From: Cellvibrionales bacterium
Lineage (GTDB): Bacteria; Pseudomonadota; Gammaproteobacteria; Pseudomonadales; GM7GCV1
Reading direction: 5' to 3'
Length of the DNA stretch: 33,788 nucleotides
NCBI GenBank assembly: GCA_014323765.1
Contig: JACONM010000012.1
Location: 76,814 to 110,601, forward strand
This document shows positions 3,821 through 23,292 of the stretch, piece after piece. Numbering within the stretch: position 1 is the stretch's first letter; each line of letters starts with the position of its first letter. A program made the translations under genes and the position numbers. The notes beneath the pieces are model-generated. The model saw only the letters and a program-made list of their open reading frames with translations. It was not told the DNA's origin and did no database searches.

Positions 3821-6800
3821 CTAGCCTGCAGAATCCGCAGGCTGAAAAGTTAGCTCAGGCAAGACGGTTTCCCATCTGTCTCGCCGGCAGAGTTGGGCGT
3901 AGGCTTCTTCGTTATCGCTCTTGCGCCAGTGGACGATGGCACCTACCTGACCGGAGATAAATCGGTACCCCTTGGGCGGTTGCCATGATTTCGCCATGCG
4001 TCCAAGAACGCGGCCTTCGTTATCCAGCAATATCCAGCACGGTTTCTCGAAAACGAGGCTCAGGGTATCGCCAACCTTGGCGGTGCTTACCGCTGCATGC
4101 ACTTCGTGCGAATCCCGCTGGCGACCCGCAAAAGAAAGGTCGACAACCTTGAGATTGGGCAGCTGATATTTGGTGGTGGGCAAAGCAGTATTTTTGTCGA
4201 GCGCAGGAACCACTCGCCTCTTCAGTATTGAATTTGAATTGGTTGGCACAAGGGGATGCTCCCCCGATGTCAGAACCGTCAAACTCTGCTGTGCCCGGGT
4301 CATGGCCACGTAGAACAGGCGGCGAGGCGCAGCGGTATCTTCTCCTGTCGATACTCGCTTCCAGTCCCCGTTCAGGATGACAACATGCTCAAACTCCAAC
4401 CCCTTGGCACGATGCGCGGTTAGCAAAAGCAGTCCGCGCTGTTCGCTACGGGTGTCCCGCGACCATTCTGCGAGCCATTCGATGATGTCCGGGGCCGGCA
4501 TCTTTTTATCCCCCAGTTCCCGAGCGAGTTCGGCTACACCTTCGGCGAGCAGCTCCACCCAACTGTTGTGCGGTTGCTCATTGAGAGCGGCTTTAACATC
4601 TTCAGTGCCTAGCAATGCGCCCTGTTCTTGGTGCAGTCGGGAGACTAGACACTGCATCTCCCGTAACCTCCAAACGCTAGGCAATTGCTCATTAGCCATT
4701 TTGACATCAATCTGCTTTGCTTCGGCGTAGGCACGGACCGCATCCAGAGCTTTCCATCGGCGGGAAATTATGGCAGCACGGGACCAGTTCCAATTAGGAT
4801 CAAGACGGGATAGGCGAGTCAATTCATCAATGGCTGCGACGGCTTGTGCCATATCGTCTGGCGGGACATCCAACAGGTGCACCCGACCATGTGCCACGGG
4901 GTCCATGTGCTCTAGGCGACCACCCTTAGGTTCGGACACCCGGGCCTGATTGATTCTGATCTCTTGCCCAACCTTCATGCGATCGGGTGCTTGGTCTATA
5001 ACCTGATTGGCCGCCCCGATAATATGGGCGGTTGAGCGGTAATTCTCGATGAGAAAAGTGGGCTTTGCTTTGTAATCTTCCTCAAATCGGCGGATGAATT
5101 TAACCGATGCACCAGCGAAGGCGTAGATATTTTGGTCGTCGTCGCCTACAGCAAACAGGCTGAGCTTCAGGTCGGCATCTTTCAGCGAACGGCCCGCCAC
5201 AGCAGCGATGAGCGCGTATTCTTCTGCGCCGATATCCTGATATTCATCCACCAGAATCCAGCGAAACCCTTGAATAAGGCTCTCGCGCTGCGCCTCGGCT
5301 TCTGACTTTGTCAGCCCCTCGGGGCTAAGCCGGCGCACTGCCTCCACGAGGATATTGTCAAAATCTTCCGTGCTGGCCTGCGTCCCTGAGAAACTGGCAC
5401 CGACCAGTTTCATCGCTAGGGAATGGCAGGTCGAAACCATAACGCCCGCTGCGTCATCCCCGACTAGGACCCGTAACCGTACGCGGATTTCGGCGGCGGC
5501 ATGGCGATTGTAGGCCAGCACCAGAATGCTGCGTGGATCTTCCCGCTTCATGCGCAACAGATAGGCGATGCGATGCACCAGAACGCGAGTCTTGCCGGAG
5601 CCGGGACCCGCCAACACCAACATATTGGTCTGGCTACGGTCATCAGTGACGATGTCTTGCTGCGCTTTGTTGCCTAGATCGTCGACAATAGCACCCCAAG
5701 ATTTGCCGGTGGTCTGCCGTCTGGCTTCATGCGCCTTACCAGGCATCCAGCGTTTCATAAACTGATTGCGACTTAACGAGAAGTAATCCTCAGCCAAGCG
5801 TTCAGCATCCTGTATATTTTTCAAACCAATTTGCGCGTAGGTTGCCATTACATGGGTTTGCAACGTCTGTTCGGCGTAATGCTCTTCCAGCGGCACAAAA
5901 TCAGCCTGGGTGAATTGTCCCCCTTTGGGCTTGAGATGCACCGTTATGGCGGGGCGAAACACGGTCAACCCTTTACCCAGCATAAGAATGCCCTGTTCGT
6001 GCATCCACAGCAGGGAGCGTTCCAGCAGCTTGCTCATATCACGCAGGCCACTAGACTTTAGAATGGCATCCTGGGTGAGCTGCGCTAAGAGAGTGCCGAG
6101 GGTGGTGTCGACCTGCAAATCTTTACCGTGCGCGCCCTTGTCAAGCTGCTTGGTCAGAAATTTCAGCAGAATTTGCGCCGCCCGCCAGCGCAGTTCGGCG
6201 GTCTTCGAGAGCGTTTTCCAGGAACGCTCGAGTGTAATGTTCAGGGTATCGCGGCTGAGTTTGCGCAGCCGGATATTCCCTTTGCCGCCATCCTGCCCAC
6301 GGCCATCTCGCGCTATCCCACGTACTAGCTTGTCCAGTAGATCGGGACGGGCGTTGGAATGACCCTGATCGCGCAGGTGCTGGCACGTTTTCGACAGGTG
6401 CATGGGCAGGGGTGTATTTTTATCAGCATCTGGTACCAGTTCGCACAGCAGGGCAATGAGGGCGCGTTCAAGACTGGTCGCTCGTTCCAAACGGTCGAAT
6501 GAAGACTGCGCTACGCCAACATGGACAAAAAACGTGACTGCAATTTCGTTGCGTGCAATCCCAAGGCTTTCAAGGTTAGTCATCGCCTTGGTCAAGGTGT
6601 TGATTGACAGCCCGCTGAGATTACAGAGCTGATCGGTCGAAATTCCCTCATCCGCTGGGGCTTGAATCAGGTGCCGCACGATAGCCAGCAGCTTGCTACC
6701 GTGCGCTGCGGTGATTCCAGCACCCGCCAGCCGCTTTTTGGCTTCCTCCACTGTGTGAACCTGTAAGGATGAAGGGAACACCTGCACCCGATTCTCTTCA

Positions 6801-8950
6801 CGCGAGACCAGTTTAGCTTCTTCCAGCCAAGAGACGGCCGTCTTGACTCGGGTGTCGTCTGTGGCACTGTCGCGCTCAAATTCTCGCTCTTTCTCGAAGC
6901 GAACGATCTCGCCGGGAGTAGCAACGACTTCGCCGCTTTTGCGCATGTGTTCATCGAGACGGCGTAGTGCCCGTAAAATAGCCCCGATTTCGTGCCGGGT
7001 AAGGCGAGAGTTAGCAGTCAGCCGAAACTGACGCTCTACATCATCGCTTGCAAATAGCAGCACACAGTCAGCCTCTTCTCGATCGCGCCCGGCGCGCCCG
7101 GCTTCCTGCAGGTAGTTTTCTAAGGACCCAGGAATGTCGGCATGTACCACCAGCCGGATATCGGACTTATCGATGCCCATTCCGAAGGCGTTAGTTGCCG
7201 CGATTACCCGCAGACCCCCGTCCCGAAATTGATCTTGGACCTCCTGTTTGTCCTCCGCTCCCAGCCCGGCATGGAAATAGGCCGCATCCTGTTGTTGCGA
7301 CTTCAAAAACTCAGCAACGCGCTCGGTGTCCCGGCGGGTAGCGCAGTAAATCACCGCGCCGGATCTGTCCTGTGGGGGAAGCGATTCTTCGATAACTCCC
7401 AAAACATCGGCCAGCTTGCTCTTCTCAGTAGTCAGGCGGACGGCAAAATGCAAGTTTTGACGGGATGCTCCGCCATCCAGCGACAGCAGCTCAACTCCGG
7501 TGCGAGAGCGAAAATGCTCCACGATATCTGCCACCACCGCAGGCTTGGCCGTGGCGGTAAGGCAGAGAATTGGGGCAGGGGGTTGGTCGCCTGAAAATTC
7601 CTTGATGAAACGCCCTAAATACCGGTAATCCGGGCGGAAATCGTGTCCCCATTTCGACACACAGTGGGCCTCGTCAATCGCCCATAAACCGACTTCGCGT
7701 TGCGCCAGAACGGCCCGGATGGAAGGGCTGCGCAGCTGTTCCGGCGAGATGATAAGAATGGCGGCATCACCCATGCGCACTTTATCCAGCGCATCCTGCC
7801 GCTCCGGCATGGACAGCATGCCGTTAATAGTAACGGCGCAGGAAATGCCCGCCCGCTCCATCCCCTGTACCTGATCTGCCATCAAGGCGACTAGGGGCGA
7901 GATGACCACAGTCAGCGCACCGATCCTGTCAAAGCGCGACAGTGCAGGCACCTGATAGCACACCGATTTGCCAGTGCCGGTAGGCAGAATACCGAGCAAG
8001 CTGGTGGCGGACATGGCCTCGTCAACAATGCGCTCTTGCAGAGACCGGCCATCAGAGTCGCTCGGCTCTGGCCGGAAGCTATCGAAACCAAACCATCTTT
8101 GCAACGCACGGACTGGGTCATGTTGCTCAACACACCAATCGCAGTCCGGATCCTTGCAAGATGTATCCCGAAGATGCCGGACGATCAACGATGCCTCGCG
8201 GAATTGCGCCCGAACCCATGGCGGCATGACCGAATCTCCGCCCGCCACGGTGATCCATGACAGCGCATAAGCCATAGGCCACCCATTGCGTGGATTACTG
8301 AGCCGCGACAGCGTCTCTTCCGCTCGCTTGTTGCAGGTGCGCGTGTTTAACAGATGGCGGATAGCGGCAACCGCCTCTTGGTGCGAAGGGCAATCCGCAT
8401 GCCGAATATATCTGAAGACGGCATCAAAGCCGCCTGAGCATTCCATTCGGGTGGTCAGATAGTGATAGGCAGCAAGCGCATTGGGTTCGATTTTTTCAAG
8501 ATCCTGCAAGGCATCCAGCTGGTTAGCCAGCACCTCGAAAACTAGGCGGGCATCTAGTTCCGGATCATTTTTATGCCCCACCGCCAAGCGGCCATCCTGA
8601 TAGTGTTTAACTAGGCGATGATAGGGGTTGCGCGGGAAGGCGAGTGGGTTCAGCCAGAGCGTATCAATCGGTGCCTGCATGCATTGCGCCAGCCTAGGTC
8701 TGGCGGCGAACAGGTGCTGCATATCGTAGTGCAGGAAATTGTGACCGACTGGGTGGGCGATGCCAGCGACGGCCTTTTCCAGAAGATCGAGATCTTTTTG
8801 CGACAAGTCAGTCGATGACTTTAGGGCGGGCCGGTCATCGTTATACACCGCGGCAAAGGCAAATATCCTAGCCTTTTTGGGATCCACCTCCAGATCGATG
8901 GATAGGCATTGGGAAAGAAACGCAGTATGGCGACTATTTGTACTGTTCAT
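3821..8950 (-). CDS. Exonuclease-RecQ-UvrD fusion helicase, 1709 residues
   Basis: A three-enzyme DNA-processing protein. Residues 15-140 look like a DEDDh 3-5 exonuclease (D19 and E21, D76, H126 with D133). Residues 285-640 are a RecQ helicase: GTGKS at 325-329, DEAH at 426-429 followed by the RecQ aromatic loop HCVSKWGHDFRPDY, and motif VI QEAGRAGRD near 615-623. Residues 1105-1560 are a UvrD/PcrA-type SF1 helicase: GPGSGKT 1115-1121, DEYQD about 1235, GDDDQNIYAF about 1269, TAHRAKGLEF 1511-1520, FYVAMTRA about 1546. The middle (650-1100) has winged-helix-like and Gln-rich stretches that I cannot assign, and the last 100 residues look like a small beta domain. It starts 34 bases after the dcyD-like gene on the same strand. 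A repair or anti-phage role is inference. Confidence 0.93.
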   Translation of the reverse strand: MNSTNSRHTAFLSQCLSIDLEVDPKKARIFAFAAVYNDDRPALKSSTDLSQKDLDLLEKAVAGIAHPVGHNFLHYDMQHLFAARPRLAQCMQAPIDTLWLNPLAFPRNPYHRLVKHYQDGRLAVGHKNDPELDARLVFEVLANQLDALQDLEKIEPNALAAYHYLTTRMECSGGFDAVFRYIRHADCPSHQEAVAAIRHLLNTRTCNKRAEETLSRLSNPRNGWPMAYALSWITVAGGDSVMPPWVRAQFREASLIVRHLRDTSCKDPDCDWCVEQHDPVRALQRWFGFDSFRPEPSDSDGRSLQERIVDEAMSATSLLGILPTGTGKSVCYQVPALSRFDRIGALTVVISPLVALMADQVQGMERAGISCAVTINGMLSMPERQDALDKVRMGDAAILIISPEQLRSPSIRAVLAQREVGLWAIDEAHCVSKWGHDFRPDYRYLGRFIKEFSGDQPPAPILCLTATAKPAVVADIVEHFRSRTGVELLSLDGGASRQNLHFAVRLTTEKSKLADVLGVIEESLPPQDRSGAVIYCATRRDTERVAEFLKSQQQDAAYFHAGLGAEDKQEVQDQFRDGGLRVIAATNAFGMGIDKSDIRLVVHADIPGSLENYLQEAGRAGRDREEADCVLLFASDDVERQFRLTANSRLTRHEIGAILRALRRLDEHMRKSGEVVATPGEIVRFEKEREFERDSATDDTRVKTAVSWLEEAKLVSREENRVQVFPSSLQVHTVEEAKKRLAGAGITAAHGSKLLAIVRHLIQAPADEGISTDQLCNLSGLSINTLTKAMTNLESLGIARNEIAVTFFVHVGVAQSSFDRLERATSLERALIALLCELVPDADKNTPLPMHLSKTCQHLRDQGHSNARPDLLDKLVRGIARDGRGQDGGKGNIRLRKLSRDTLNITLERSWKTLSKTAELRWRAAQILLKFLTKQLDKGAHGKDLQVDTTLGTLLAQLTQDAILKSSGLRDMSKLLERSLLWMHEQGILMLGKGLTVFRPAITVHLKPKGGQFTQADFVPLEEHYAEQTLQTHVMATYAQIGLKNIQDAERLAEDYFSLSRNQFMKRWMPGKAHEARRQTTGKSWGAIVDDLGNKAQQDIVTDDRSQTNMLVLAGPGSGKTRVLVHRIAYLLRMKREDPRSILVLAYNRHAAAEIRVRLRVLVGDDAAGVMVSTCHSLAMKLVGASFSGTQASTEDFDNILVEAVRRLSPEGLTKSEAEAQRESLIQGFRWILVDEYQDIGAEEYALIAAVAGRSLKDADLKLSLFAVGDDDQNIYAFAGASVKFIRRFEEDYKAKPTFLIENYRSTAHIIGAANQVIDQAPDRMKVGQEIRINQARVSEPKGGRLEHMDPVAHGRVHLLDVPPDDMAQAVAAIDELTRLSRLDPNWNWSRAAIISRRWKALDAVRAYAEAKQIDVKMANEQLPSVWRLREMQCLVSRLHQEQGALLGTEDVKAALNEQPHNSWVELLAEGVAELARELGDKKMPAPDIIEWLAEWSRDTRSEQRGLLLLTAHRAKGLEFEHVVILNGDWKRVSTGEDTAAPRRLFYVAMTRAQQSLTVLTSGEHPLVPTNSNSILKRRVVPALDKNTALPTTKYQLPNLKVVDLSFAGRQRDSHEVHAAVSTAKVGDTLSLVFEKPCWILLDNEGRVLGRMAKSWQPPKGYRFISGQVGAIVHWRKSDNEEAYAQLCRRDRWETVLPELTFQPADSAG

Positions 8951-12280: not shown

Positions 12281-13438
12281 TCAGTCGTCGTCGGGCAGAT
12301 AATCGCCCACCCTACCCTGCAGTTTCTGCTTGACATGCCGCAACGGCTCAGCGAACGCCTTTTCCATTTTTAGCATGCTGTCCACCATAAAGGCTTGCAT
12401 GGAATCCCATTGTTCTTTTTCCAGAATGTCGCCCTGAATTTCGGCTTTAATTCGACAGAAACGTCTTTCCGGTACAGGCGGTTCCCATTCCAATGCGCCA
12501 CCAAAATCTTGCTCTATTTGCTCCCGGTATTTAGAAAGCTCGGTAAAAATAAATCGATTTATCTCCTTATTTCTGTGCTCAATGACTAGTGATGTGCGCA
12601 CATATTTTCTTCGAGCAGAAAAAGTTAAATAAACGCCGCCGATTCCAACAGCAGCATTTATCCAAGAGCGAACACTAGGGGCAACATTCCGATTTCGAAA
12701 TAGATCTGAATCAGTGGCTTTCACCTTATCGATCAAGCCAACCCAAAACTCCGTGCGAATATCCTGTCGATGTTTTATCTCGGCCTGCGAATTGACCTCA
12801 TCCCGTGCCTTTTCCGCCATGCCTATCATGTAATCTTCCGCATCTTGGGTCGGAATAATTTGTTCAAAATTTAAAACAGGCATTTCCTCCATTAAATGAA
12901 GCGTTGCACGAAAGCACTGAATGCGAATTTTGAAATTAAGCAACCAGAGTACCGTCGAGGTTACTTCCTTACGAAACTTTGCCGCGACCAGAATAACACG
13001 CTGCGTCACTCCCTCATTCAAGATCAGGTTTTCATAGTCTTCATCCAAAAATTCAGCCAGATTTTCTTCCGCCTTTTCACTCTTGCCTTGACCATCGAGA
13101 AATTCCTGATAAATTTTTCGGATATTTTCTTTAGACAGACTCGAGCAATAAGAGGCATATTTCAACGCCTGCCAAGTAACATCTCGCCCGCTGTCGTCTA
13201 GCTTGTTTTCGATAACAACTAGAGAGCCATTCTTATCCAAAGTAAGCAGGTCTAGCCGCTCGCGAGTATTAAAAAAGCCGGCAAATTCTTTCTGAATGAT
13301 CAGCAGGTCTTCACCAAAGACACCGGGCTCCTTAGCGATCCATTCTTGAAGGTGATCACGTTCCATAAAACCAAGCTCGGCAAAGGAGGACTCCCGAAGC
13401 TCTTCGATACTGTTTTCTGTACGATTTATTTTGTACAT
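12281..13438 (-). CDS. PD-(D/E)XK nuclease with DUF4268 domain, 385 residues
   Basis: A probable DNA-cleaving protein. The N-terminal 120 residues carry a PD-(D/E)XK core: RLDLL (D63), VVIENK (E77, K79) and QALKYA (Q90), the last typical of nucleases in the NucS/DUF91 neighbourhood. Residues of about 225-365 match DUF4268 (FWVGLIDK, PSVRSWINAAVGIGGVYLTF, EINRFIFTELSKYREQIEQDFG, LEWEP). It starts at ATG 13438, inside the last codons of the upstream gene (13-base overlap), so the two are translationally coupled. Local GC is near 40 percent, well below the neighbours, which suggests acquisition beside tRNA-Ala. A restriction or anti-phage role is inference. Confidence 0.8.
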   Translation of the reverse strand: MYKINRTENSIEELRESSFAELGFMERDHLQEWIAKEPGVFGEDLLIIQKEFAGFFNTRERLDLLTLDKNGSLVVIENKLDDSGRDVTWQALKYASYCSSLSKENIRKIYQEFLDGQGKSEKAEENLAEFLDEDYENLILNEGVTQRVILVAAKFRKEVTSTVLWLLNFKIRIQCFRATLHLMEEMPVLNFEQIIPTQDAEDYMIGMAEKARDEVNSQAEIKHRQDIRTEFWVGLIDKVKATDSDLFRNRNVAPSVRSWINAAVGIGGVYLTFSARRKYVRTSLVIEHRNKEINRFIFTELSKYREQIEQDFGGALEWEPPVPERRFCRIKAEIQGDILEKEQWDSMQAFMVDSMLKMEKAFAEPLRHVKQKLQGRVGDYLPDDD

Positions 13439-17740: not shown

Positions 17741-19867
17741 CTAGAGGTCGAACAGCAGCTTGTTGATGCGGCGCACGTAGCCGGTCGGGTCGGCCAGCTG
17801 CTCGCCTACCGCTAGGCTGGCCTGATCGAACAGAATTTCGATCAAGTCGGCGAAGCGGCTTGCGTCCGCGCTTTCGGTGTTCGCATCGTTCGCATCCTTG
17901 TCCTTGCCGGCGCCCGCGGCCTCGGTGCCGCCCTTGGTGGCGTCTTTGATTTCACCTAGGCGGGCCAGCAGCGGGTGTTTTAGATTCAACTCCAATATCG
18001 GCTTAGCCTCCGGCACTTCCTGCCCGGCGGCTTGCATGATGCGGCGCATTTGCATTCCCATATCCTGCTCGCCGATCACCAGACAGGCGGGCGATTCCAC
18101 TAGCCGGCTGGAGGCGCGCACCGCGGCCACCCGCTCGCCCAGATAATCGGCGATGCGCTCGATGAGCGGGTCTTTTTCCGCTTTGTCGCTGCTCTTTTCC
18201 GCCCCCTCCGCGCTGGCCTTTTGTAGGTCGGGCAGTTCGCCGCGGGCGACATCTTGGAAGACCTTGCCCTGATAATCGGGCAGGTGGCTCATCAGCCACT
18301 CATCGATGCGATCGGTCAGCAGTAGCACCTCGCAACCGCGGGCGCGGAAGGCTTCCAGTAGCGGGCTCTTGACCGCCACACCGAAAGAATCGGCCACTAG
18401 ATAGTAGATTTTCTCCTGCTCCTCCTGCATGCGTTCTAGGTATTGGTCCAGCGAGTGCCGCTGTTCGGGCGCGTCATCATGGGTGGAAGCAAAGCGCAGC
18501 AGGGCGGTGAGTTTTTCGAGATTGGTGGGGTCTTCGACTGGGCCTTCTTTGAGGACTTGACCGAAGGCATCCCAAAATTTCTGGTAATCGGCCGGTTTGT
18601 TTTTCGCCATTTTGCCGAGCATATCCAGCACTCGCTTGGTCAGGGCGGTCTTGATGGAATCGACTTCTTTCGACTGTTGCAGCAGTTCGCGCGAGATATT
18701 GAGCGGCAGGTCGTTGCAATCGACGATGCCTTTGACGAAGCGCAAATAGAGCGGCAGAAATTGCTCGGCGTGGTCCAAAATAAAGGTGCGGCGGACGTAA
18801 AATTTCAGGCCGCGGGGGGCCTCGCGCTGCCAAAGATCGAAGGGGGCCGCGGCGGGTAGATACAGCAGGCTGGTGTAATCCAGTTTGCCTTCTACGCGGT
18901 TGTGCGACCAAGCCAGCGGTGGCTCGGGGTCGTGCGCGATGTGGCGGTAAAACTCGCGATATTCTTCATCGCTGACCTCTGTCCGCGAGCGGGTCCAGAG
19001 GGCTTTGACGCTGTTGACTGGGGCAAATTCGGGCGATTCTGGGCGGTCTTTTTCCTCGCCGTGAAAGGGCTTGGCCATCTCCACCGGAATGGCGATGTGG
19101 TCGGAGTATTTTTTCACGGTCGCCCGCACTGACCAATCGTTGGCGAATTCCGCCGCGTCCGGTTTCAGGTGTAGCACCACCCGGGTGCCGCGTTGGGCTA
19201 GTTTGGCGGGGCGCAATTCGTAGTCGGCCTCGCCGGAACAGGCCCAATGCACGCCCTCGGTTGGCTTGGCCCCGGCGCGGCGGGTGAATAATTCCACCCG
19301 CTTGGCGACGATAAAAGCGGAATAAAACCCCACCCCGAATTGGCCGATGAGCGCGGCATCTTTTTGCTGGTCGCCGGTTAGTTTTTCTAAAAATTGCGCG
19401 GTGCCGGAGCTGGCGATGGTGCCGATATTGGCGATGACTTCCTCCCGCGACATGCCGATGCCGTTGTCGGTCACGGTGATGGTTTTGGCTGCTGGGTCGA
19501 GTTCGATGCGGATGCGCAGGTCGCTGTCGCCGGCGTAGATATCGCCGTTGTCGAGGGCCTCGAAGCGCAGTTTGTCGCAGGCGTCGGCGGCGTTGGAGAC
19601 CAGCTCGCGGATGAAAATTTCGCGGTTGCTGTACAGCGAATGGGTCATCAGGCGTAGCAGCTGCTTGGCTTCGGCCTGAAAGACGTGGGTCTCGGCGGTG
19701 GGGTTTGCTGTGGTTTTGGTGGCAGCCTCGGGCTTGGGCTTGGCCGTGGATTTCGGCGCAGTCTTGGGGGTGGCTTTGGATTTGGCGGGTTTGGGTTTAA
19801 CCGGGCTGTTCGGCTTGGGGCTGGAAGCGGATTCAGGCGTGGATTTTGGAGTTTTTGCGGACATCAT
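17741..19867 (-). CDS. htpG: Chaperone HtpG (Hsp90) with basic N-terminal extension
   Basis: Cytosolic ATP-dependent Hsp90 chaperone that remodels late-folding clients. In 708 residues the GHKL ATPase domain starts at about 60 ([20 protein letters not shown], then [18 protein letters not shown]) with DNGIGM and [11 protein letters not shown]; middle and C-terminal dimer domains follow ([23 protein letters not shown]). Residues 1-59 are extra: Lys, Pro, Ala, Ser and Thr with almost no other residues, like a histone-H1 tail; typical HtpG starts near residue 55 of this protein. No internal start could exclude the tail, and the ATG at 19867 has AGG at a good distance. A sigma32 promoter precedes it. 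Confidence 0.95.
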
Positions 19868-20562: not shown

Positions 20563-21870
20563 ATGCTGATCAGCTGTACGCTCGAAAATTGGATGTCTTT
20601 CCGAGATCAGGTTACCTTTTCCATGGTTGCCAGCCGGGAGCGTCAACACAATGATAGGGTTCCTAGGATCGATAAATATAAAACGCGAGTGCTGCCCATC
20701 GCGGCTATTTATGGTGGCAATGCGTCGGGGAAAAGTAATTTTTGTACGGCTTTGCAGTTTGCCCGTACCCTAGTCGTTGAGGGCGTACGGTTCGATAGCC
20801 CCATTCCGGTCGAGCCATTTTTGCTCGATGCGGAGACAGCTGAACAACCCGTGAAATTTTCTTTCGAGTTACTGGTTGGTGAGACTATTTATGAATTTAG
20901 TTTTGCGGTAACCGGTAAAGAGGTGTTGGAAGAAAAGCTGATAAAGATTGGTAAAACTGATGAAGAAGTGCTCTATCACCGATGTGAAGGTCAACCCAAT
21001 TTTGCGGAATCCTTAGCTGATCAGGATTTTCTAAAATTCATCTTTAAAAGCGCAGCAAAAAATCAGTTATTGCTTACCAGTCTAGTCTCTCAAAATGCCG
21101 ATGCCTTCAGTCCGGTCTACAGCTGGTTCAAGGATCATCTCGTGTTGGTTGGCCCCGATAGCTATTTGCAGAATATTGATGCGATCTTTGATGCCCCAAT
21201 CGGGGAAATGTTAGATCTTCTCGATACTGGCATTACCCGTTTGAGCTTCGAAAAAATCTCCTTCGATAGTCTTCCCGATTCAATAAAAAGATTTTTACGG
21301 GAACATGTTCAAGAAGGATCTACTCGGAGAATACCGAATGAACCAATTTATGCGAGTCGTCAGAATGGCAAGTTTATCGTGCAGAAACTAGTAACCCATC
21401 ATCCAAAAGCAGATGGGACGGAAACTAAATTCGATCTGTATCAGGAGTCAGATGGCTCGCAACGGCTTATTGAAATACTACCTGCATTTTTTGATGTCTC
21501 TTCTTCGGGTAGCAAAAAAGTCTATGTTATTGACGAACTAGATCGAAGCCTCCACACGCTACTGGTGCGTCACTTAATCGAGATGTACTTAGCTGACTGC
21601 TCCAACAAAACTCGCTCTCAGGTGTTGCTAACCACCCATGATGTGCTGCTCATGGATCAAAAACTGTTGCGTCGCGATGAAATGTGGGTCACCGAGCGGA
21701 ATCTCAGCGGTGCTTCGACGCTTTTTTCTTTTAGCGAATACAAAGATGCGCGTCGCGACACAGATATTCGAAAAAGTTACCTTCAAGATCGTCTTGGTGG
21801 CACACCACAGATTGTGCTGAATGAAAGTTTCACCGCTCTCACGACCGAAGAAGGCGCAACCAATGGCTAG
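20563..21870 (+). CDS. RloA / AbiLi-like AAA-family ATPase, 435 residues
   Basis: An ATPase of the ABC/SMC-like AAA_21 group (COG1106), found in anti-phage loci as the first partner of RloB. The Walker A is GGNASGKSN (51-59), the signature-like ESDGSQRL lies at 295-302, the Walker B VIDELDRS at 322-329, and the switch TTHD at 357-360. It starts at ATG 20563 with AAGGA well spaced. The gene overlaps the rloB-like start by 8 bases. Its GC is near 40-45 percent, unlike the CBS gene upstream. By family knowledge the pair resembles AbiL (AbiLi/AbiLii) or RloA/RloB; activity is not proven here. Confidence 0.85.
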   Translation: MLISCTLENWMSFRDQVTFSMVASRERQHNDRVPRIDKYKTRVLPIAAIYGGNASGKSNFCTALQFARTLVVEGVRFDSPIPVEPFLLDAETAEQPVKFSFELLVGETIYEFSFAVTGKEVLEEKLIKIGKTDEEVLYHRCEGQPNFAESLADQDFLKFIFKSAAKNQLLLTSLVSQNADAFSPVYSWFKDHLVLVGPDSYLQNIDAIFDAPIGEMLDLLDTGITRLSFEKISFDSLPDSIKRFLREHVQEGSTRRIPNEPIYASRQNGKFIVQKLVTHHPKADGTETKFDLYQESDGSQRLIEILPAFFDVSSSGSKKVYVIDELDRSLHTLLVRHLIEMYLADCSNKTRSQVLLTTHDVLLMDQKLLRRDEMWVTERNLSGASTLFSFSEYKDARRDTDIRKSYLQDRLGGTPQIVLNESFTALTTEEGATNG

Positions 21871-22464
21871 GAAAAAGCAGCGGCGCATGGTTGCAAGACA
21901 CCCTGTTAAGAGGCGTTTTCGTACACTGTTTGTTATTGCAGCCGAAGGCAGCAAGACTGAGCCACAATACTTTCGAATGATTCGTTATCTAAGCCCAGAT
22001 AACCGTGTAGATATTGTTAAAAAAAGCTGGACAGCGACCCATTACGAGTATTAAAACGAATGCAAAATTACCTTCAAAGAAAAAATATGCAAAGCGGCGA
22101 TCAGGCATGGCTTGTGGTGGATAAGGACCATTGGAGAGACGAACAGTTACTCGAGTTACATGCGTGGACTAAAGAGAATGATGCCTACCATCTTGCCCTC
22201 AGCAACCCCTGTTTTGAGCTTTGGCTGTTACTGCATTTTGAAGACGGGGTTGGTGGTACATCGGCGAGCGACTTGCGGCGCAAACTGCGGCAGCATCTGC
22301 CGGATTACAATAAAGACATTGGCCCTCGCCAGATAAGCCGTACACAGATCGATGCGGCCATTGACCGCGCTCGCCAGCTTGACCAGCCTCCCTGTGGCGA
22401 CTGGCCGCGTACTGCGGGGCGTACCACGGTTTATCGGCTTGTCGAGAATATCTTGCAACCCTGA
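21863..22464 (+). pseudogene. RloB / AbiLii-like gene split by a -1 frame change at an A7 run
   Basis: The RloB partner is read in two frames. Frame 1 (ATG 21863, AAGG upstream) gives FRTLFVIAAEGSKTEPQYFR and continues to the A7 run at 22019-22025, then runs into a stop at 22052-22054. The -1 frame continues as KLDSDPLRVLKRMQNYL, then WLVVDKDHWRDEQL, LALSNPCFELWLLLHFEDG and onward to TGA 22462-22464; these are the conserved RloB (TOPRIM-like) motifs. One added A, or -1 slippage on A AAA AAG, restores a 200-residue protein of normal make-up. It may be a disrupted gene, a sequencing homopolymer error or programmed frameshifting. Confidence 0.8.
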
Positions 22465-22501: not shown

Positions 22502-22873
22502 TTATATTGGCAAGCCCTCTCCGGCGACTAGCTCGGCCTGTTTTAAGACCATTTTTACTGTGCCTGGTTGTCCCTTTTTATACCAAATCACCCCGTGCTT
22601 GTTAATATGGTTTTGTAGTTTTTGGCTGGTTATTTTTTGATAGATCAGTAGATCGATCTTTTGCGGCATATCCAGATCCTCTATTTCCAGAGAGATTTTG
22701 GCTTGCTCGATGAAGGTGAGGCGGTTGCCGAATAGGGCGATGTCTAGGTCGGATGTGGGTCTGAAAGTGCCTGCGGCGCGGCTGCCGAATAGTACGGCTT
22801 TTTCTACTTCCGGGTGAGCAGATAAAACCCGAATAATGCCTTGGCGGTATTTATCTTGGATGCCGTCGGTCAT
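22502..22873 (-). CDS. MNT-family nucleotidyltransferase antitoxin (MntA-like), 123 residues
   Basis: A minimal nucleotidyltransferase, the likely antitoxin of a HEPN/MNT pair. The catalytic signature is FGSRAAGTF (G30, S31) and SDLDIALFG, with metal-binding D42 and D44; a third acidic residue is D74 in KIDLLIY. In the characterised MntA/HepT system the enzyme adds AMP to a tyrosine of the HEPN toxin. The start is ATG 22873, which overlaps the HEPN stop by ATGA; an upstream TTG-like start would cross the partner gene. It is coupled to the HEPN gene. Confidence 0.88.
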   Translation of the reverse strand: MTDGIQDKYRQGIIRVLSAHPEVEKAVLFGSRAAGTFRPTSDLDIALFGNRLTFIEQAKISLEIEDLDMPQKIDLLIYQKITSQKLQNHINKHGVIWYKKGQPGTVKMVLKQAELVAGEGLPI

Positions 22874-23292
22874 TTTTTGTCCGCCTCTTTTTGCAACCGT
22901 TCGCACAGGCGACCGAACATGGGCTGGTAAATTTCTTGAATGCGCTGCAAGATGTCTTGGGCTAACTGTTCGTTGTAGGTGTGGCTGGTCAGGTTGCGTT
23001 CTTTTAGGCTGGCTAAAAAATGTTCCGTGTCCTGTTCCGGCAAAATATCGACTGCAAAACTTCTTTGGATAACTTCACGTGGGGTTTTGTCTTGGTACCC
23101 CTGCATCAGGAGCCAGTCTTTTAGGGTGTTCCATGCCAGCTCGTGGGTGTATTCGAAGCGTTGAATAAATCCCTCGCGCTCTAATAAGGAGTAGTTGCTT
23201 AGATCTTGCCCGGCGATTTCTGCCAGCTTGCGATAGGCATTCTCAAAATTGGCGAAACGTTGTTGCCAGCGGGGTTCGGCGGCAGCGTTCAT
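22870..23292 (-). CDS. HEPN-type toxin / nucleotidyltransferase substrate-binding protein, 140 residues
   Basis: An all-alpha protein of the NTase substrate-binding family, the probable HEPN toxin (RNase). The segment FIQRFEYTHELAWNTLKDWL at 42-61 is typical. The catalytic motif R99-N-L-T-S-H104-T-Y106 fits R-x4-H-x-Y, in which R and H cleave RNA and the tyrosine is the AMPylation target of MntA. It is upstream of and overlapping the MNT gene, the order of known HepT-MntA modules. No strong ribosome-binding site is seen before ATG 23292. It lies 59 bases past the sucD stop, on the same strand. Confidence 0.85.
   Translation of the reverse strand: MNAAAEPRWQQRFANFENAYRKLAEIAGQDLSNYSLLEREGFIQRFEYTHELAWNTLKDWLLMQGYQDKTPREVIQRSFAVDILPEQDTEHFLASLKERNLTSHTYNEQLAQDILQRIQEIYQPMFGRLCERLQKEADKK

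Follow-up and report, generated by a model that had tools for sequence, protein, structure and literature searches.

A Cellvibrionales RloAB/AbiL operon with rloB split between two reading frames at or near an A7 run

The RloAB operon and its closest described relatives

RloAB, or AbiL (AbiLi-AbiLii), is recognized by a fixed gene order in which an AAA_21 ATPase gene is followed, with an overlapping start, by a gene for a PF13707 protein, and in intact relatives this second, effector gene is whole. PARIS (AriA-AriB) likewise joins an AAA ATPase to a Toprim nuclease partner, and RloB has itself been described as related to OLD/Toprim domains in a statement that draws on HHpred (PMC10440598). 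By analogy with AbiL and with AriA/AriB of PARIS, the RloA of an intact system, an ABC-type AAA ATPase, would serve as both sensor and restraint, while RloB, a Toprim-like nuclease, would be the toxic effector that aborts infection.

The window, by which we mean the whole stretch of 33,788 nucleotides analysed here, is part of a contig in a 1.88-Mb, 40-contig genome of a Cellvibrionales bacterium that is 91.6% complete. On its forward strand, rloA (abiLi; 20563..21870) encodes an intact AAA_21 ATPase of 435 aa with a Walker A motif, GGNASGKSN, and a Walker B motif, VYVIDELDRS, that matches the PADLOC AbiLi model with an E-value of 6e-78 and Pfam AAA_21 with an E-value of 2e-35. The protein also matches the AriA model of PARIS (E 8e-32), but far better AbiLi, and the AriB models matched neither piece of rloB, so that the AriB effector expected of PARIS was not found at this locus. 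The start codon of rloB (abiLii), ATG 21863, overlaps the rloA stop, and the gene continues in two pieces on the same strand. The first (21863..22054) comprises 63 codons and a TAA at 22052-22054 and holds the EG.KTEP motif with the putative Toprim glutamate; the second (22021..22464), in the -1 frame, comprises 147 codons, ends with a stop at 22462-22464, and holds the DKD and SNP.FE.W motifs. The first piece aligns to positions 1-29 of the PF13707 profile (E 2e-4) and the second to positions 42-195 (E 3e-30), with AbiLii model E-values of 1e-4 and 3e-18, respectively. Because these are consecutive parts of the profile, the pieces represent one protein split over two frames. The earlier note, made from the letters of the window, had named an RloAB/AbiL operon whose RloB motifs go on in the -1 frame, and the PADLOC and Pfam matches on both genes, together with the open reading frames, uphold it on each point. 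No second RloB was found in the whole assembly, which contains the same two pieces only.

The locus therefore has the AbiLi/RloA-type ATPase upstream and the PF13707 protein directly downstream that characterize RloAB/AbiL, but its RloB does not occupy a single continuous frame, and for this reason we file it as a broken copy and not as a working RloAB system. When the break was mapped onto an AF2 model of the homologue L039 (pLDDT 78), it fell in the loop that connects strand 2 with helix 2 (residues 52-57). E26, with which strand 1 ends, lies before the break, and D85/D87, which follow strand 3, lie after it. Both Toprim-like motifs (the glutamate and DxD) are thus present in rloB, but in different frames. 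The L039 model has a Toprim-like order of strands and helices; a PDB fold search with the RloB model returned no match at E ≤ 0.001 and a PDB sequence search returned none, so the Toprim assignment draws on the motifs, on the order of the strands, and on what PMC10440598 states from HHpred. In AriB, the Toprim mutation E26A abolishes activity (PMC12409363). Since the break separates E26 from the DxD motif, a truncated 63-residue product is, by this comparison, very unlikely to have activity.

We give almost no credence to a split but working RloB, assembled from two separately produced pieces, of which the second would come from re-initiation at ATG 22060. That ATG, the first in the second piece, lies 5 nt past the 0-frame stop, a distance compatible with re-initiation, but it is preceded by no Shine-Dalgarno-like sequence and encodes a Met that the nearest RloB homologues have at an internal position, so it is no new start. 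Moreover, the split would run through the Toprim-like core, with strand 2 on one side and strand 3 on the other, and no homologue is split at that point.

The frame transition and the A7 run

Both frames are open from 22021 to 22051 (+ strand), between a -1 frame stop (TAA, 22018-22020) and the 0-frame stop, and the frame switch could lie anywhere in this interval. A run of seven A at 22019..22025, followed by G and read in the 0-frame as GTT AAA AAA AGC, is the likeliest place for it, as judged from homology, though not a proven one. The earlier note had set the break exactly after an "A AAA AAG-type" run at 22019-22026; there is indeed a run there, but A AAA AAG is read only in the -1 frame, after the shift, and the position is less exact than was claimed.

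One of the three readings in the same note was programmed frameshifting or transcriptional slippage as a control on a toxic effector. Either process, a -1 ribosomal frameshift or slippage during transcription of the A7 run, would yield a small, controlled amount of RloB. We consider this very unlikely, even though the run sits at the overlap of the frames, the coding sequence downstream of the break is conserved, and tssM of Citrobacter rodentium provides a precedent, being likewise interrupted near a poly-A tract with its remainder in another frame and rescued by slippage (PMC4256274). The tssM tract has 11 A and its slippage has been demonstrated (PMC4256274), whereas the rloB run has seven and shows no conserved or experimental sign of slippage. 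The canonical -1 slippery heptamer, X_XXY_YYZ, was sought at the run and is not there in frame: the phase is wrong, the 0-frame giving T_AAA_AAA and then A. With a -1 slip at both lysine codons, the tRNA in the P site would have to pair with UAA, which sets the run apart from A_AAA_AAG sites of the dnaX/IS type. Around the run, no stimulatory RNA structure better than that of shuffled sequences was detected (z = -0.08), and no Shine-Dalgarno-like sequence was found upstream of it. Seven A also fall short of the run of about nine or more A/T that we required for transcriptional slippage, the usual slippage length being nine; in many bacteria, selection against slippage becomes evident once A/T runs reach a length of nine, with a threshold that varies among them (PMC1088944).

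Neither the site nor the break is conserved. All 30 aligned intact RloB homologues (23-53% identity) pass through the junction in one uninterrupted frame; a copy from an AT-rich Geminocystis plasmid keeps a continuous frame with A runs of seven and eight nearby, and the others have at most six A near the junction. Each of 11 RloB matches on viral contigs is a single continuous segment, and the closest relatives, which themselves lie on viral contigs, are whole (57-60% identity over the length of RloA, about 53% for RloB). RloB was found in 22 of 392 genomes in an order-level scan, an internal stop being listed only in L097 besides the window copy. In L003, L004, and L010-L029, rloA lies directly upstream of all 22 full-length copies, which confirms the operon. 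A conserved break was thus looked for and found in none of the 30 aligned, the 11 viral-contig, or the full-length order-level copies. Such a comparison of homologues had been proposed in the earlier note, and the uninterrupted frame without a homopolymer at this point is one half of an outcome that it had named as refuting its claim, the other half being the lack of a frameshifted product. Searches for same-species copies, comprising a plasmid DNA search, a viral scan with the window RloB, and an exact junction scan of viral contigs, yielded none, and a scan of genome contigs for RloB relatives yielded only L006, at 47% identity.

A reversible or leaky switch at the A7 run, through phase variation or low-level slippage that would silence toxic RloB in most cells and allow it in a few, appears quite unlikely; were it real, a defence toxin would be controlled by the length of a run. 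For phase variation in particular, in which the A-run would change length reversibly in the population and the sequenced allele would be an OFF state, one may point to a homopolymer that lies within the coding region of a defence gene with a cost, to a frame that depends on run length, and to the conservation of the downstream sequence. We nonetheless regard it as highly improbable: seven A make a short contingency tract, homologues have no such tract, and many ordinary genes in this genome contain A7/T7 runs in continuous frames.

The run itself is unusual in an AT-rich operon such as rloAB but not extraordinary. When rloA was shuffled synonymously, a run of at least seven A appeared in 3.4% of shuffles, with 1.5 runs of at least six A per gene, and rloA itself contains three A6 runs. 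Homopolymers are natural hot spots for indels, so nothing out of the ordinary is needed to explain why a frame break coincides with a run.

Assembly artefact or genuine lesion

The true rloB frame could also be continuous and the consensus wrong at the homopolymer. This reading has several points in its favour: the break coincides with a homopolymer, rloB shows no decay elsewhere, and the assembly is fragmented, with 20-N gaps. In addition, a survey of older genomes (PMC3711429) expects sequencing errors to outnumber real indels among singleton frameshifts that homology confirms. We hold the artefact to be possible but disfavoured. In a 387-kb sample, consisting of 20 stretches of the same genome and the window, 48 coding A/T runs of at least seven lie in continuous frames; this count favours intact genes and should not be read as an error rate. 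A further break at a homopolymer could not be confirmed anywhere in the sample, and rloB is the only conserved gene seen to be broken within the window.

A frameshift scan by coding potential over the 387 kb produced many raw candidates, which were checked with Pfam. Pfam confirmed a break in just one conserved gene, for a Mur ligase, where the sequence has a 20-N scaffold gap; the other candidates tested turned out to be neighbouring but distinct genes, interruptions at N gaps, or frames that lack Pfam matches and resemble antisense shadows. Poly-G/poly-C stretches of 11-23 either adjoin 20-N gaps or lie at the end of a contig (L044:3708-3766, L051:2237-2247, L053:15404-15466, and L054:1-21). 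These are probably two-colour short-read artefacts of the assembly, and their resemblance to such artefacts suggests that the genome was assembled from short reads, which rarely miscall A7.

Among the three readings in the earlier note, then, an indel in the homopolymer is best supported and sequencing error is the weaker one, while programmed frameshifting or slippage finds no support in the phase and length of the run, in its surroundings, or among homologues.

Conservation, origin and genomic surroundings

We think it probable that the locus is a laterally acquired RloAB operon in which rloB was recently inactivated by an indel at or next to the A7 run. The lesion would have arisen by slipped-strand mispairing and the resulting rloB allele would be null; loss of a costly effector may have been neutral or favoured, with rloA remaining. 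The earlier note had seen no other decay in the protein, and this was essentially right. The C-terminal piece retains 64 of 85 columns that are invariant in the reference clade, compared with 58 of 85 in the intact L006 copy, which lies at a similar distance, though 5 of 30 more widely conserved columns have changed. The ratios of RloB to RloA identity are 0.77-1.01 for the window and 0.73-1.09 for intact pairs. With no measurable decay in either the columns or the identity ratios, the lesion is recent, if it is real; recency is judged here from conservation alone, the closest rloB relatives found having at most about 60% identity.

The GC content is 45% for rloA and 50% for rloB, compared with 60% for the sampled genome, and RloB was found in none of the relatives searched, one congener and three family genomes. 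In three family genomes (L079, L080, and L081), the htpG-sucD interval contains different genes, including repeated ORFs that start with 'ILFGVQATGNGHITRAR' and are glycosyltransferase-like, which marks the interval as a variable spot. The composition, the absence in relatives, and the variable spot point to lateral acquisition of rloAB.

Decayed copies occur elsewhere. In L097, which belongs to the same order and carries RloAB of the same clade, rloA is cut after residue 63, and the copy has a substituted DxD motif, an in-frame TGA, and a frame change. The RloB of L098 has an internal loss, and in L033 and L005 only C-terminal RloB remnants are left and rloA is absent. As in the window, the RloB coding sequence in these four copies is interrupted or truncated, but their lesions are larger and lie at other positions, and rloA, which is cut or missing in L097, L033, and L005, is intact in the window. 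Lesions at a different place each time are what is expected of inactivation and not of a programmed site.

The kind of operon is already known, and the broken copy is most likely an ordinary case of recent gene inactivation. Under the inactivation by indel that we favour, it would be a clear example of a two-gene toxic defence system that dies effector first, through a homopolymer indel, with the ATPase left intact. For annotators, the locus should not be counted as a working AbiL/RloAB system, nor should it be cited as a frameshift-controlled effector without reads.

Convergent to rloAB is a HEPN-MNT-like gene pair (22502-23292, - strand), a putative separate system with a low GC content of 47-49%. 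It consists of a minimal nucleotidyltransferase (MNT; 22502..22906, - strand; Pfam Polbeta, E 6e-19; GC 47%) and a nucleotidyltransferase-substrate-binding (HEPN-like) protein (22870..23292, - strand; Pfam PF08780, E 9e-34; GC 49%). With this low-GC pair beside rloAB, the htpG-sucD interval holds two accessory systems. Farther away in the window, the reverse strand encodes a 385-aa DUF4268 protein (12281-13438; GC 44%) that matches the PADLOC candidate defence family PDC-S11 (E 2e-147), and a 1709-aa protein (3821-8950) with RecQ/DpdF-like and UvrD/GajB-like helicase parts in one frame. At the N-terminus of HtpG, also on the reverse strand (17741-19867), an Ala/Lys/Pro-rich extension adds about 60 residues; the family relatives match from residue 63 onwards, and the extension reflects either a wrong start or an unusual N-terminus.
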